Shown here piece by piece: positions 315-17,113 of a DNA stretch of 19,367 nucleotides. Each line of letters opens with the position of its first letter. The stretch's first letter is position 1. The DNA comes from an uncultured Sulfurovum sp. (lineage in GTDB: Bacteria; Campylobacterota; Campylobacteria; Campylobacterales; Sulfurovaceae): positions 1 through 19,367 of the forward strand of contig CAMZNQ010000021.1 of assembly GCA_947313765.1 (NCBI GenBank), given 5' to 3'. The notes below the pieces were generated by a model. The model did no database searches and had not been told where the DNA came from. It saw only the letters and a list, made by a program, of their open reading frames with translations. The translations under genes and the position numbers were made by a program.

Positions 315-1493
315 TTATTTAACTTTAATCATAAAAAAGTCTTTTGCTCGCTTATAACTATCACTCTCTCCTACAATAAGAACAGAACCATCACTTGTTC
401 GTGTAATTCCATGTGCAATATCTCTGTTTCTATCTCCATATACTTTTGACCAAATAAGCTTACCTTTTGAATCAAGAGCTAACAGATAATTGTCGAAGTC
501 TCCTTTTCCCATTGAGTTGGTTTTTCCTGCAACGAGGTAATTTCCATCTTTAGTTACTGTTACAGCATTTCCTTCATCATAGTATTTAAATCCATATATC
601 TTAAACCAGATAAGCTTACCTTTTTTGTTAAAATAGGTTACAGCTAGGTCAGTCTGTTCTGAATTATATGAACGTGTAGCACCTGTTGCCACTACTCCAC
701 CATCTGGAGTTGGTGCAACAGCATTTAGTACATCATATTCATTTTCTCCTAAGGATTTGGCCCATATCTTTTTACCATTTTGGTCAAAAAAAAAAAAAAA
801 GAAATCTGAATCTCCTGAACGATTTACCTCTCTAGCTCCTACCATCATGAAGTTACCATCTGCAGTTCTAGTTAATGCTTTTGCTTCATCATTGAGTTTT
901 CCACCAATAGTTCTTTGAGATACTTTTTTTCCATTTTTATTTAAAATGACAATATATATATCTTTGTAACCTCTTTTAGAGAATGATTCTGTATCTCCCA
1001 CAACCATAACTCCACCATTTGCTAAACCTGCAATACCACCTGCATATTCATCTCTATCTCCACCAAATGATTTTTCCCAAATAACTTTTCCATCAAGTGA
1101 AAGTTTTGCTACATATAGGTCTTTATCTGCATTATCGTTAAAAGATTTACCTGAACCTAAAATAAGTAAGTTTCCATCTTTTGCACGGGTAATTGAGACT
1201 CCTTTATCTTGTTTCTTTCCACCTAGAAGTTTTCTCCATACTATTGAACCATCTGCTGTGATACGTGTTACACATATATCTGAACGTTGTGCATTGAACG
1301 ATTTACATGTTCCAATAATTGCATTATCTCCATTCTCTAACATTACAACATCGTTTGCAATATCATCATCCTCTCCACCATAGGTCTTTTGCCATAGAGT
1401 TTTGAAAGCAGGTTGCTTCTGCACAGAATCTGCATAGAGTAGGGGGGTTAATAGTAGTGATGTCAAGATTAGTTTACTATAATTTTTTATCAT
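315..1493 (-). CDS. Exported seven-repeat beta-propeller protein
   Basis: This 392-aa protein has a signal peptide at about residues 1-21 (basic start, hydrophobic core LILTSLLLTPLL, cleavage near YA-DS). The rest is seven tandem repeats of about 52 residues, each opening with a W-x-K-x-x-G-G-like motif and closing with D-x-D, a hydrophobic strand and x-x-G-K. Repeats start near LWQK, VWRK, IWEK, VSQR, IWAK, IWFK and IWSK. Seven such units suggest a seven-bladed propeller in the periplasm or outside the cell, probably for binding or scaffolding; no catalytic motif is visible. Repeat 4 is the most diverged: its opening Trp is Ser, and its D-x-D strand is six phenylalanines encoded by TTC followed by a run of 15 T. 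The start has AAGGA about 7 bases upstream. It is probably transcribed alone. Fold confidence is good; role unknown. Confidence 0.85.
   Translation of the reverse strand: MIKNYSKLILTSLLLTPLLYADSVQKQPAFKTLWQKTYGGEDDDIANDVVMLENGDNAIIGTCKSFNAQRSDICVTRITADGSIVWRKLLGGKKQDKGVSITRAKDGNLLILGSGKSFNDNADKDLYVAKLSLDGKVIWEKSFGGDRDEYAGGIAGLANGGVMVVGDTESFSKRGYKDIYIVILNKNGKKVSQRTIGGKLNDEAKALTRTADGNFMMVGAREVNRSGDSDFFFFFFDQNGKKIWAKSLGENEYDVLNAVAPTPDGGVVATGATRSYNSEQTDLAVTYFNKKGKLIWFKIYGFKYYDEGNAVTVTKDGNYLVAGKTNSMGKGDFDNYLLALDSKGKLIWSKVYGDRNRDIAHGITRTSDGSVLIVGESDSYKRAKDFFMIKVK
786..800 (-). repeat. In-frame homopolymer of 15 T in the coding strand
   Basis: The plus strand shows 15 consecutive A. In the gene this gives five TTT codons after a TTC, so six phenylalanines. 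Repeat length matches the other propeller units, so the current tract length keeps the frame. A change of one or two bases would truncate the protein in repeat 4. Confidence 0.9.
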
Positions 1494-2376: not shown

Positions 2377-4068
2377 TTAAAACTTTTTCTCCTCTTTCTT
2401 ATCCATAGCACGAGCATTATCCATAAGTACAGGAACAAATAATAAAGATACAAATACAGCAGCAACAGTACCAGAGATAAGGGCAACTCCTAGACCACCA
2501 AAAATAGGGTCTCCTGCAAGTAGAGCAGAACCAAGAATAATAGCAATAGCTGTTAAGAAAATAGGTTTAGCACGTGTTGCAGTAGCATGTGCAATTGCCT
2601 CTTTTTTCTCCATACCATCTTCAATTAGGGACATAGCAAAATCTATTAGTAGCAGAGAGTTTCTTGAGCTAATTCCCATTAGTGCGATAAATCCAATAAG
2701 AGAAGTAGCTGTTAGGAAAAATGTGTTTACAGTAACCAAATCAGCAACCCAATGCCCCACAATAACTCCAATAAGAGAGAGGAATGAACCACCTAAGATA
2801 ATTCCACTAAGTGCAAAACTTTTATAGTAGATAACCAATAAAAAGAAGATTAGAACTAGTGCAGCAATAAATGCAGCACCCAAATCTCTAAAGGTATCAA
2901 GTGTCACTTTCATCTCTCCATCCCATCGGATTAAGAACTCTTCACCTGTCTTTTTATCTTTAAGTTCAAGGTCAAACATATAGGTAGAGAATGGAGCATT
3001 CTTAACCTCATACTCTTTTTCAAAATACTCTACCATCTTCTCTCTAGCATCTAGTAGTGGATATACTTGAGATACATTATCTGTTTCAGCAATAACATTT
3101 ATCATTCTCTTTAAATCTTTATGCATAATAGTAGATTCAGATTTTACTTTAACAATATGGACTACTTCTGATAGAGGAACCATCATACCCTTTTGGTTCA
3201 TGAGGTTTAGAGAGGTAAGTTTTGAACTAATAGAGTCTATACTACTATCTTTTAGCTCTTTACTCTTTTTGCTTAATACTAAGAAGATAGGTATCTGTTC
3301 AGAGTGATTTTCTGAATTTTTAGTGGCAATAACCATCCCCTCAAATGCTAAATAGAGAATATTATTTACCTGCTCCACACCTAGTCCTGAACGTGCAATT
3401 TTTTCAATATCTGGAATAAGTTTATACTTATCATAGATATCATCAGCCATAATATCAATATCTACTAAATCCTTTGTATTACTAAGAATATTTCCAACTT
3501 CAACAGTTAGTTTTCTGCTATGTTCAATATCTTCTCCATAGACCTCAACAACTATTTGTGCCATTGTAGGAGGTCCTGATGGTTGCTCTATGATTTTAAT
3601 ATTTGTTCCTAGAACAATATTTTGACAACTATTTCGAATTATTGGTCTAAGACGACTTGTCATTAAAAATGATGGCTCTTCTCTCTCCTCTTTAGGTGTT
3701 AAGTTAATAGAGATTTCAGCCACATTTTCTGTTCTTTTCATCATTGAACCCTTAACCAGTCCAGCATAATCAAGAGGAATACCTTGTGCATAAAATATGG
3801 ACATATTTGTAATCTCTCTCTCTTTTCTTAATATATCTGTAATACAACTTGTCACTTTTTTAGTCTGCTCAATAGAACTTCCTGTTGGTGTATCTACATA
3901 GATTGAGTATGTATTTGCACTTTTCCCTGGTAGCATTCTTGCTAGAACCAGTTTTGAAGGAAACATTAATAGTGATGCAAAAAAGGCTATAAGTGTCAAA
4001 AGAATAATTAAAAATTTTCTAAACTTACTCTTTAAGACCCAATTGATAAATTTTTCAAGTCCTTTCAT
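2377..4068 (-). CDS. RND efflux pump, C-terminal half (TM7-12)
   Basis: This 563-aa inner-membrane protein matches the second half of an RND permease, which is usually one chain of about 1,000-1,100 aa. It has one membrane helix near residues 17-37 (TM7 equivalent), a periplasmic porter region (about 40-390), then five helices (about 393-550). The segment GFIALMGISSRNSLLLIDFA corresponds to TM10, and TRAKPIFLTA to the loop after it. In RND pumps this half works with the N-terminal half as one protomer of a trimer that uses the proton gradient to expel substrates. Its ATG follows the TAG of the preceding half-gene with no gap and in the same frame, with AAGGAGGAG 6 bases upstream. It needs the partner chain to work. 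The substrate cannot be told from sequence. Confidence 0.88.
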   Translation of the reverse strand: MKGLEKFINWVLKSKFRKFLIILLTLIAFFASLLMFPSKLVLARMLPGKSANTYSIYVDTPTGSSIEQTKKVTSCITDILRKEREITNMSIFYAQGIPLDYAGLVKGSMMKRTENVAEISINLTPKEEREEPSFLMTSRLRPIIRNSCQNIVLGTNIKIIEQPSGPPTMAQIVVEVYGEDIEHSRKLTVEVGNILSNTKDLVDIDIMADDIYDKYKLIPDIEKIARSGLGVEQVNNILYLAFEGMVIATKNSENHSEQIPIFLVLSKKSKELKDSSIDSISSKLTSLNLMNQKGMMVPLSEVVHIVKVKSESTIMHKDLKRMINVIAETDNVSQVYPLLDAREKMVEYFEKEYEVKNAPFSTYMFDLELKDKKTGEEFLIRWDGEMKVTLDTFRDLGAAFIAALVLIFFLLVIYYKSFALSGIILGGSFLSLIGVIVGHWVADLVTVNTFFLTATSLIGFIALMGISSRNSLLLIDFAMSLIEDGMEKKEAIAHATATRAKPIFLTAIAIILGSALLAGDPIFGGLGVALISGTVAAVFVSLLFVPVLMDNARAMDKKEEKKF

Positions 4069-5772
4069 CTATTTCTCCTCCTTTTTTTTACTCTTTTCAT
4101 CATGCTCATGAGTATGATGATTTTCAGAACATATTTCACAAATACCATAAGGATTATACTCCATATCATACTCCTCATTTTTGCTAGGTTCAGGCTTTTT
4201 AAGTAGTTTAAGACTTAGGTAAGGGGTAAATATATATGCAACAACTAAAGAGGCAAATAGAGCAACAGGAACATTGTACGGAATAGGTTTCATAAATGCA
4301 CCCATCATTCCTCCAACAAATGCCATTGGAACCATTGTCATAATAATTGCTAGTGTTGCAATGTTTGTAGGACCTCCAACTTCATCAGTAGCCTCTACCA
4401 ATAATGCACCCATCTCTTTTTTATCTGCACCCTCTGTATGTAGATGTCTGTGAATATTTTCAATAACAATAATAGCAGCATCAACAAGTAGACCTAGAGA
4501 TAAAAGGAATGCAAAAAGTGTAATACGGTTTATGGTTTGACCTGTAATATAGGCGATAAATAGAGTAATAGCTAAAATAGCAGGTACAGAGAATGTAACA
4601 ATAATGGTCTCTCTCCAACCTAATGCAAATACAAGCATTATTGCAATAATGGCAATTGTGATAACAAGGTGATGCATCAACTCTTCAACAGCATGATTTG
4701 CTCTCTCTCCATAGTTTCTTGTCTCTATAAATTTAATGCCTAGTTTATCAAACTTTTCTATCTTATCTTCAAGTAGTTCAAGAACATTGTTTGCAACAAA
4801 AACAGCATTTGTTCCTGCTAACTTAGATACAGATAGTGTTACTTGAGGTATGTTTTTTGAGAATGGTTTATTTGGGTCATTACTCTCTTTAAATATAAGC
4901 TCAACATCTTGAAAATTTTGTTTATCTATCCCTTTAGTTACCTTTGCTACATCTTTTAGATATATTGGAGAGTTCATATAGTTAGCAACCATTACATTTT
5001 TAACATCATTAATATTTTTAATAGCATTAGATAGACCAAATATAACTAGATGATTATCTCTTGTTCTTCCTTTTACATTTGGAACATTAACAGCTAACTG
5101 TTTGATTGCCATCATGATTTGCCCCATAGAGAGATGATATGCAGATAGCCTACCCATATCAACCTCTACATTAAATTGCTCTTTGTGTGAACCAGAGAGA
5201 GTTGTTTTTGCTACATTTTCAATGGCATTAATCTCATGTTGTAGGTCTCTAAGCTTCTCATTAAACTCTACAGTAGATAGTTTAGACTCTTTTGTTTGAT
5301 AGAATGCAAATGTTAATATTGGAACATCAATATCAATATCAAAAGGTTTAATAAGTGGTTGCATAACTCCTTTTGGCATTTTATCCATATTTTGCATAAC
5401 TTTATCATATAGCTTTAGGTTTGAATCTTCTCTATTCTCTCCAATAAAGTACATAACATTTACCATACCTACATTATTCATAGATACACTATATACATGC
5501 TCTATACCTTGAACCTCTCTAAGCTTCTTCTCTAGTGGTTTAGAGATGATATTTTCAATCTCTAATGGTGTTGCTCCAGGCATGGCAACAACAACACCTC
5601 CTCCTGAGATTGCAATTTGAGGGTCCTCTTCTCTTGGCATGGTATTTAATGAAATCCAACCTAATGTAAGAATAACAATTCCCAAAACAGCTGTTAGTGG
5701 ATTTCGCAGGAAAGCTTGACCTAGTTTACCTGCAACATCTTTTACAACGTAAGGCTCTTTTATCTTTTCCAT
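4069..5772 (-). CDS. RND efflux pump, N-terminal half (TM1-6)
   Basis: This 567-aa protein has TM1 near residues 25-44, an RND porter region (about 45-360, with MPREEDPQI and MPGATPLEIENIISKPLE), and TM2-6 from about 366 to 522. The TM4 motif GLLVDAAIIVIEN carries Asp431 and Glu438. This D-A form resembles heavy-metal (CusA-type) pumps rather than the D-D pair of AcrB. The chain ends in a polar tail with Cys545-x2-Cys548 and a His cluster (552-557), then a lysine/glutamate stretch and TAG. A normal RND protein would continue here into TM7; instead a new ATG follows immediately. It starts 2 bases after the adaptor gene and belongs to the tolC-hlyD-rnd operon. Drug, organic compound or metal export are all possible. 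Confidence 0.88.
   Translation of the reverse strand: MEKIKEPYVVKDVAGKLGQAFLRNPLTAVLGIVILTLGWISLNTMPREEDPQIAISGGGVVVAMPGATPLEIENIISKPLEKKLREVQGIEHVYSVSMNNVGMVNVMYFIGENREDSNLKLYDKVMQNMDKMPKGVMQPLIKPFDIDIDVPILTFAFYQTKESKLSTVEFNEKLRDLQHEINAIENVAKTTLSGSHKEQFNVEVDMGRLSAYHLSMGQIMMAIKQLAVNVPNVKGRTRDNHLVIFGLSNAIKNINDVKNVMVANYMNSPIYLKDVAKVTKGIDKQNFQDVELIFKESNDPNKPFSKNIPQVTLSVSKLAGTNAVFVANNVLELLEDKIEKFDKLGIKFIETRNYGERANHAVEELMHHLVITIAIIAIMLVFALGWRETIIVTFSVPAILAITLFIAYITGQTINRITLFAFLLSLGLLVDAAIIVIENIHRHLHTEGADKKEMGALLVEATDEVGGPTNIATLAIIMTMVPMAFVGGMMGAFMKPIPYNVPVALFASLVVAYIFTPYLSLKLLKKPEPSKNEEYDMEYNPYGICEICSENHHTHEHDEKSKKKEEK
4075..4083 (-). promoter_or_regulatory. Strong ribosome binding site between the RND half-genes
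   Basis: The minus strand reads AAGGAGGAG, then AAATAG, then ATG. This near-perfect Shine-Dalgarno sequence lies inside the last codons (Lys-Glu-Glu) of the N-terminal half-gene. It is better than any other ribosome binding site in the window and supports separate initiation at 4068. Confidence 0.75.
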
Positions 5773-8219: not shown

Positions 8220-9809
8220 TTATATGGTTACATAAGTAACATTTAAACAAGTTTTTAAATTTGAGAGGTCTGAGATAAGTTCTTTGGTTACGACTCCATC
8301 AACTTTAACAACAGCTAAAGCTTGTAAATTTTTATCGCGTCCCAATCTAAAGTCAGAAATATTGAGTTTATGAGAGGCAATAATCCCTCCTACATCTCCA
8401 ATAACACCTGGAACATCTGTATTTCTAAATAGAATCATTGTCCCCTTTGGCTCTAAATCTAGTTGATAGCCATCAATATCAATAATACGAGGAGCATCTT
8501 CTCCAAAAACAGTACCTGAAATAGTGAATATTGTATCTTTAGTAACAAGTTTAATACAAACTTTATTGCTAAGTCCACTATGATTTACTTTACTCTCTTT
8601 TAAAATTTCTATATTTCTCTCTTGGGCAACAAACTCTGCATTCACATAGTTAACAGAGTCTTCTAAAGATTCAGATAAGATGCCTACTGTAGCAAATGTA
8701 CTTAATGAATCAATATAGTCAGAAACAGCACCCTGTGTAGAAATTTTTATAGTTTTAATTTTAGAGCGTGTTGCTTGTGCAGATAGACTTCCCATACGTT
8801 GTATCAGTTCAAGATATGGTCTTAAAAAGTCTGGTAATTCACTCTCTTTAATTGGCAAGTTTAAAGCATTGGGATAAGCAATATTTTTTGCCGCATCAAT
8901 AGCATTTTGGGCAGCTTGAATAGCAATGTTTTGTTGAGACTCTTTTGTATTTGCACCTAAATGAGGTGTTACTATAATATTATTTAGGTCAAGAAGTGGA
9001 TTGTCTATTGCAGGTTCTTTGTTAAAAACGTCAATTCCTGCCATATGAATCTTTCCAGATTTCAATCCATTAAGTAGAGCATCTTCATCGTAAAGACCAC
9101 CTCTAGCACAGTTGATAAGAACCACACCATCTCTCATCTTCTCCATCTCTTTTGAGCCTATAATTCCAATAGTCTCTTTATTTTTTGGAGTGTGTATGCT
9201 AATAATATCACAAGCTAAAATATCATCAAAATTAGATGTATATTTAATATCAAAATCGGTTACTTTTCTTGGGTCAATATATGGGTCATAAGCTACAATA
9301 TCCATCTCAAACGCTTTAGCTCTTTTTCCTACACGTGAACCAATATTACCAAAACCTATAATACCTAACTTTTTATCTTTAAGTTCAGTACCATACTAAT
9401 CTTGTCTTCTCCAAACTCTATCAACTTTTAAGTTGTTGTGAGCATAAGGAAATTGACGTACACAAGATAGCATATGAGCCATAGTAAGTTCAACAGCAGC
9501 AATAGTATTTGCTGTTGGTACATTCATAACAATAATACCTTTTTTACTACAACCATCAATATCTACATTATCAACACCCACACCAGCACGGATTATTGAT
9601 TTGATATTGTGGGCATTATCTAGAAACTTTTGGTCTACATCTGTAGAGGAGCGAGTAATAGCAACATCAGCAAGGGGTATAATTTCAGAGATGAGCTTAT
9701 CTTTAGGCTCATCTGCAGCATTAATAAGATTTATATCAGCATCATTCGCGAGAATATCCAACCCTTTTTGGTGGATATGGTCGCAAACTACAACAGTTAT
9801 TTTAGACAT
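8220..9809 (-). pseudogene. serA: D-3-phosphoglycerate dehydrogenase, interrupted by an in-frame TAG
   Basis: SerA oxidises 3-phosphoglycerate with NAD as the first step of serine synthesis. The frame is full length (529 codons plus stop), of the long type: substrate/NAD domains, an intervening domain, and a C-terminal ACT domain (about the last 75 residues, MILFRNTDVPGVIGDVGG). Codon 138 (9396-9398) is TAG, between RRQD and YGTELKDKKLGIIGFGNIG, where the family has Trp (the D-W-Y-G pattern). The N-terminal piece stops before the NAD motif GFGNIG (152-157). The catalytic Arg (NCARGG), Glu (NKEP) and His (TPHLG) lie after the stop. The next ATG in frame is at 9305, beyond GFGNIG, with no ribosome binding site, so neither fragment should be active. 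The ATG at 9809 is chosen over the TTG at 9818: AGGA, overlapping the rpsA stop, is 10 bases from the ATG but only 1 from the TTG. Confidence 0.85.
9396..9398 (-). other. Premature amber codon in serA
   Basis: The minus strand reads CAA GAT TAG TAT GGT. Homology runs unbroken in one frame on both sides, so this is a single-codon nonsense change. A G-to-A change in TGG would produce it. Confidence 0.9.
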
Positions 9810-16121: not shown

Positions 16122-17113
16122 CTAAATTGCTCCAATAAACGTGTATCTCCCTCAAAGAGCATTCTTAGGTCAGGAATCTTATGTAATAGCATTGCAAATC
16201 TCTCTATCCCTAATCCAAAAGCGTAACCACTAACATCTTTATAGTTTACAGCATCAAAAACATTTGGGTCTACAATCCCACAACCAAGAACTTCTAACCA
16301 TCCTGTATGTGAACATATACGACAACCCTCTGCTTCACAGAAGATACATGAGATGTCAACTTCTGCAGATGGTTCAGTAAAAGGGAAAAAAGTTGGTCTA
16401 AATCTTACTTCAACCTCTCCAAACATATAGTTTAGAAAATCGGACATAATAGACTTTAGATTAGCAAAACTAACCTCTCCCTTTCCTCCTACAACTAACC
16501 CCTCTATTTGGTGGAACATTGGAGTATGGGTAATATCATAATCTTTTCTAAAAACAGCACCTGGGGCAATCATCCGAATTGGTGGTTTTTGTGCTAACAT
16601 AGTTCGTATCTGTACAGGAGATGTGTGAGTTCTCAATACAGCTTTATCTTTGAAGAAAAATGTATCTTGCATATCTCTTGCAGGATGGTTCTTTGGTAGA
16701 TTCAATGCCTCAAAGTTGTGAAAATCATCTTCTACTTTTGGACCATCTTCTATTGAGAAGTTTAATGCAACAAAATAGTCAATAATCTTATCCATAGTAG
16801 CCATTACAGGGTGTAATGCACCTTTTTCATTAAGATTACCATAGAGAGATACATCAATAGCTTCAGATTTTAATAGACGCTCTATCTCCTCTTTTTTTAG
16901 TTTCTCATAACACTCATCATAAACAGTTTGAAGATGGGCTTTATTTTTGTTAAGCCCCTCTGCAAATGCTTTTTTCTCTGGACCGGGTACATCTTTTAGC
17001 TTCGCAAACTCTTTTGATAATGCACCTTTTTTCCCAAAAAGTTCAATCCGAACTTTACCAAGTACATCAAGAGAATCTGCATCTCTAATCTCTTTTTTTT
17101 TTTTTTTTACAAT
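16118..17113 (-). CDS. pheS: Phenylalanyl-tRNA synthetase alpha subunit, start codon uncertain
   Basis: The catalytic subunit of PheRS. Family motifs are intact: [44 protein letters not shown], a C-x2-C-x4-C-x2-C cluster that may bind a metal, GWLEVLGCG and the closing [15 protein letters not shown]. Homology extends about 100 codons upstream of the first in-frame ATG (16804), through [20 protein letters not shown] and the N-terminal helices, so a start at 16804 would lose the tRNA-contacting coiled coil. The open frame runs to 17122, after an in-frame TAA at 17123-17125, and contains no ATG, GTG or TTG. The candidates are ATA (17122), ATT (17113) or a start destroyed within the adjoining run of 16 A. 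I give ATT as the least unlikely of these, giving 331 aa, but GAGG is only 2 bases from it. First gene of pheS-pheT-aroA-ispH. Confidence 0.85.
17093..17108 (-). repeat. Run of 16 A at the expected start of pheS
   Basis: The plus strand shows 16 consecutive T. On the coding strand the run follows TAGAGGTTATTGT and precedes GAGATTAGAGATG. It begins 7 bases after GAGG, the normal place for a start codon, and encodes five lysines in the open frame. Confidence 0.9.

Follow-up and report, generated by a model that had tools for sequence, protein, structure and literature searches.

An in-frame TAG in serA of an uncultured Sulfurovum draft genome, probably a base error in the assembly

Given the occurrence of a TAG codon inside an otherwise continuous serA, we questioned whether the codon marks a lost pathway, an unusual reading of UAG or a fault in the assembled sequence. 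Read literally, such a stop would point to a Sulfurovum-like bacterium that cannot make its own serine or that suppresses UAG. An earlier note on this DNA had left four options side by side (a nonsense mutation, a mixed population, a sequence error, and readthrough or suppression). Analysis of the 19,367-bp stretch of DNA as a whole (the window), of a sample of the draft assembly from which it derives and of related genomes now favours a sequence error and argues against suppression or recoding of UAG, with a true nonsense mutation or a minority strain staying as the main rival.

The serA frame and its internal stop

The gene occupies one 529-codon frame on the minus strand (9809-8220), which closes with TAA and holds a single internal stop, a TAG at codon 138. 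Translation and domain matches bore out the proposal that a continuous, full-length serA frame is broken at this codon, as consecutive SerA domains lie on either side of it:

9399..9809, minus strand: 5' part of serA, codons 1-137, with the 2-Hacid_dh catalytic domain (PF00389, E = 2.2e-24)
9396..9398, minus strand: in-frame TAG of serA, codon 138; TGG in 80 of 80 related loci (best 80 of the 185 found)
8220..9395, minus strand: 3' part of serA, codons 139-529 and the final TAA, with the NAD-binding (PF02826), PGDH intervening (PF19304) and ACT (PF01842) domains; first later ATG at 9305

The domain set of long-type SerA was found in order, with the two pieces matched apart, and the uninterrupted reading frame that this enzyme requires is broken by the TAG. 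The first ATG, GTG or TTG past the stop is the ATG at 9305, 30 codons on and beyond the GFGNIG nucleotide-binding motif, in agreement with the claim that no start codon lies between the stop and this motif. It opens a 361-residue frame beginning at Met169, and no clear ribosome-binding site adjoins it.

Conservation at codon 138 was assessed in related loci (mostly Sulfurovum or Campylobacteraceae records) and in public SerA proteins. A motif search placed Trp at the site in 124 of 127 fetched proteins. Of the remaining three, P0114 did not match the motif, and two are C-terminal pieces without this segment, the window's own among them. The earlier supposition that this position is normally Trp therefore holds for close relatives but does not extend to the wider family, as M. 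tuberculosis 1ygy aligns a Phe there. An alignment of 80 sequences joined the window to all of the 80 relatives but the partial L081, which fell below the length filter. In it, 241 SerA columns were invariant or had one exception, and the window departs from these at only two, namely the stop and one Thr-to-Ser change. With its conserved residues and frame otherwise kept, serA is not a decayed pseudogene, and because the remainder of the gene is open and conserved, the pattern at the stop is more than chance.

The interruption is private to this genome. Among the 161 of 175 family genomes with a serA match (E of 1e-80 or better), the window's own genome alone had a stop inside the gene, and a TAG was found in serA of none of the others. 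The nearest public SerA proteins among the matches listed were 91% identical, in a database clustered at 90% in which a closer sequence could hide, so a second assembly of the same species was not seen there; the window's C-terminal SerA piece was a singleton in public protein clustering. Other drafts had serA broken in different ways: G162, G084 and G013 divide it between two contigs, G134 has it as a pair of overlapping frames on a single contig (C36, 9483-11071; likely a frameshift), contig ends truncate it in G051 and G145, and G174 carries an odd upstream fusion. No paper on the serA stop was found among the matches listed in a literature search.

Elsewhere in the window, TAG serves as a genuine stop, as had been claimed: it ends rpsA and argD, as well as the first half of an RND efflux pump. 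The RND permease region (2377-5772, minus strand) consists of two genes, with the TAG directly before an ATG. This split, at 4069, had been a candidate interruption, but five relatives share it, each with the stop directly before an ATG and behind a GGAG- or GGGG-type sequence, and the TAG at 4069 is therefore a real gene end. A further TAG had been flagged as lying inside serB, which would have argued for suppression in another serine gene; the locus reading placed it directly before the serB ATG, and serB is intact (206 residues). The serC match scored under the family cut-off.

Other lesions in the same draft assembly

The source assembly (G000) is a draft of 379 contigs and 83.4% completeness. 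We screened the window and 60 further contigs (two by their first 20,000 bases; 20 read N), 385,735 readable bases in all, with a coding model for stops within genes. Four candidates were obtained, namely the serA TAG and three TAA codons:

L109 11965-11967 (contig C217), minus strand: in-frame TAA in topA; a Ser codon in 7 of 7 relatives
L134 4736-4738 (contig C9), minus strand: in-frame TAA in ispDF; both IspD halves match PF01128 consecutively
L158 2045-2047 (contig C35), minus strand: TAA cutting the frame of a probable Cache-type histidine kinase; less certain

The topA pieces on both sides of the TAA are consecutive matches to the Toprim domain. The open frame of topA has 705 residues, as against 726-794 in 28 others of the genus; in one more the gene lies on two contigs, and no match was obtained in 4 of 34. 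At the ispDF stop, a sense codon (TCA or TTA) stands in all 7 relatives compared; the frame spans 259 residues, shorter than the 296-412 of the 32 other matching genomes in the genus (one of the 34 lacking a match). For the kinase, Cache and kinase domain matches were found only after the TAA.

The same screen returned one candidate in control genome G143 (413,347 readable bases), three in G150 (278,015) and two in G063 (400,000). The G143 candidate was kept as a likely true interruption. The candidates in G150 and G063 were set aside as ordinary gene ends: in G150, two have a ribosome-binding-type sequence before the next start, and the case for L201 (9154) is less clear; in G063, only 29 and 38 codons follow the stop. 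The excess of stop-interrupted frames in the source genome is suggestive, not strong, and depends on how the control candidates are read (4 vs 1, p = 0.018; 3 vs 1, p = 0.057; raw 4 vs 6, p = 0.25). A search by homology found no frameshifts in any of the four genome samples (34,470 to 82,292 bases covered); two control candidates from that screen (L196 and L177) appear to be chance antisense frames and were left uncounted. An earlier, looser interruption screen yielded 26 rows, mostly read as antisense or chance frames.

Two homopolymer runs were also present in the window's contig:

17093..17108, minus strand: poly-A run of 16 bases (sense strand) in the pheS start region; same-length replacement of the mixed sequence of three relatives
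786..800, minus strand: poly-T run of 15 bases (sense strand) inside the ORF at 315-1493; same-length replacement of the mixed sequence of G143

The poly-A run is likely to cover the position at which the relatives appear to start pheS with TTG. Runs of at least 11 bases were absent from 1,096,580 bases (5,218 N) of the three control genomes, and the rest of the source-genome sample, the two runs in this contig aside, held a single A12. A base-for-base replacement would be hard to obtain by mutation and easy to obtain by faulty base calls, whereas slippage would be expected to alter length; both runs thus support base-level error in the contig that carries serA. The contig is nevertheless not full of errors. 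Private changes at first and second codon positions in six window genes numbered 67 in the source genome, 34 in G143 and 55 in G157; as the count is raised only modestly, other errors are few, and a raised substitution rate was not used as proof of error.

The kind of break carries more weight here than the number. topA, ispDF and pheS are core genes that cells are expected to need, and private, unlikely lesions elsewhere in an assembly (topA, ispDF, the poly-A/T replacements) are what base-level error would leave behind. Several such lesions lie in core genes of this draft (379 contigs, 83% complete), and the serA TAG is most likely an error at one base of the assembly, a reading to which we assign a probability of roughly 0.68. 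A common technical origin, for example reads that were few or of poor quality, may underlie the private breaks and the poly-A/T runs, and the serA stop would then be one more error of this set. In the living cell, serA is likely to be unbroken and serine synthesis normal. In view of the other lesions, isolated stops in this draft should not be taken as biology until the reads have been checked.

Alternative readings of the stop

A genuine, recent nonsense mutation, either fixed or carried by a minority strain whose sequence the assembler selected, is a possible but doubtful explanation. If it were true, translation would end after 137 residues, leaving no working SerA and making the cells dependent on outside serine or glycine. 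One transition from TGG suffices to produce the codon, and serA lacks other decay, as a recent event predicts. The earlier note had suggested looking for another serA, and none was found in the contigs searched of this 83.4%-complete assembly; GlyA was likewise not found in those contigs. Transition from TGG is moreover described, in the part of a recoding survey that deals with pseudogenes (PMC8629427), as a favoured way for a true stop to arise in frame, which counts against the error reading. However, serB is intact, and topA, ispDF and pheS are broken as well, a combination that would be improbable in a living cell. Among the 120 proteins listed, none was a truncated SerA from a different contig of the species.

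Translation of UAG as Trp, by a suppressor tRNA or programmed readthrough that would restore full-length SerA, is highly improbable. The strong conservation on either side of the stop is what it would predict, and, as tRNA-Trp was not recovered in the assembly and one tRNA match has an unreadable anticodon, a CUA variant may have been missed. However, recoding would be expected to make UAG rare as a terminator and to be accompanied by loss of RF1, and neither was observed: in the genome sample, TAG terminates 109 of 350 coding-scored frames with a length of 100 codons or more, and 100 of 315 open frames when the minimum is set at 150 codons with no coding filter, and the RF1 gene (prfA) is intact (503-bit match, no internal stop). 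The search for a tRNA with a CUA anticodon, also proposed earlier, found none among the 22 readable anticodons of 23 tRNA matches, a set from which tRNA-Trp and several others are missing in the contigs. Nor does UAG interrupt several conserved genes, the serA TAG being the only one among the four candidates in the 385,735 readable bases. The stops in broken frames are not of one codon (one TAG, three TAA), as predicted by error and not by amber suppression, and TAA is unreadable by a CUA anticodon. The serA TAG also recurs in none of the other family genomes searched. On its use as a terminator, the intact RF1 and the TAA-type breaks elsewhere, recoding of UAG or amber suppression at serA was rejected as improbable.

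A narrower version, in which a suppressor tRNA-Trp (CUA) encoded in the unassembled part of the genome reads some UAG codons as Trp, with most genes bearing UAG still terminated by it and serA dependent on the suppressor, is remoter still. Equally far-fetched is a split enzyme of two polypeptides acting together, the second made by re-initiation at Met169: the 361-residue frame from 9305 and a public SerA piece of the same length and start (P0124, on a 14,497-base contig) would fit it, but this ATG lies past the nucleotide-binding motif, so that the NAD-binding domain would be cut, it follows the stop by 30 codons with no clear ribosome-binding site adjoining, and the genome nearest to P0124 among those compared (93%) has an intact serA.

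Comparison with known systems

Apart from the stop, serA of the window resembles known long-type enzymes. The order PF00389, PF02826, PF19304 and PF01842 is common to its 529-codon frame, to the SerA of Sulfurovum relatives (the nearest 88-91% identical) and to M. tuberculosis 1ygy, from all of which it differs by the one in-frame TAG at codon 138.

Known stop-codon recoding in bacteria, as covered in the part of the survey concerned with it, involves UGA read as Trp or Gly in certain clades (PMC8629427). Such cases share with serA of the window a stop falling in frame where Trp is conserved. In contrast, the codon here is UAG, which is a common terminator in this genome, RF1 is intact, and none of the readable anticodons belongs to a suppressor tRNA. 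The serA stop is most likely ordinary, and a novel role for UAG is improbable. Another parallel is offered by the spurious stops of drafts and pseudogenes discussed in the Codetta screen (PMC8629427). The passage in question concerns yeast pseudogenes, whereas serA of the window is otherwise intact; common to both are an isolated stop at a former TGG and a TAG that otherwise acts as a terminator.
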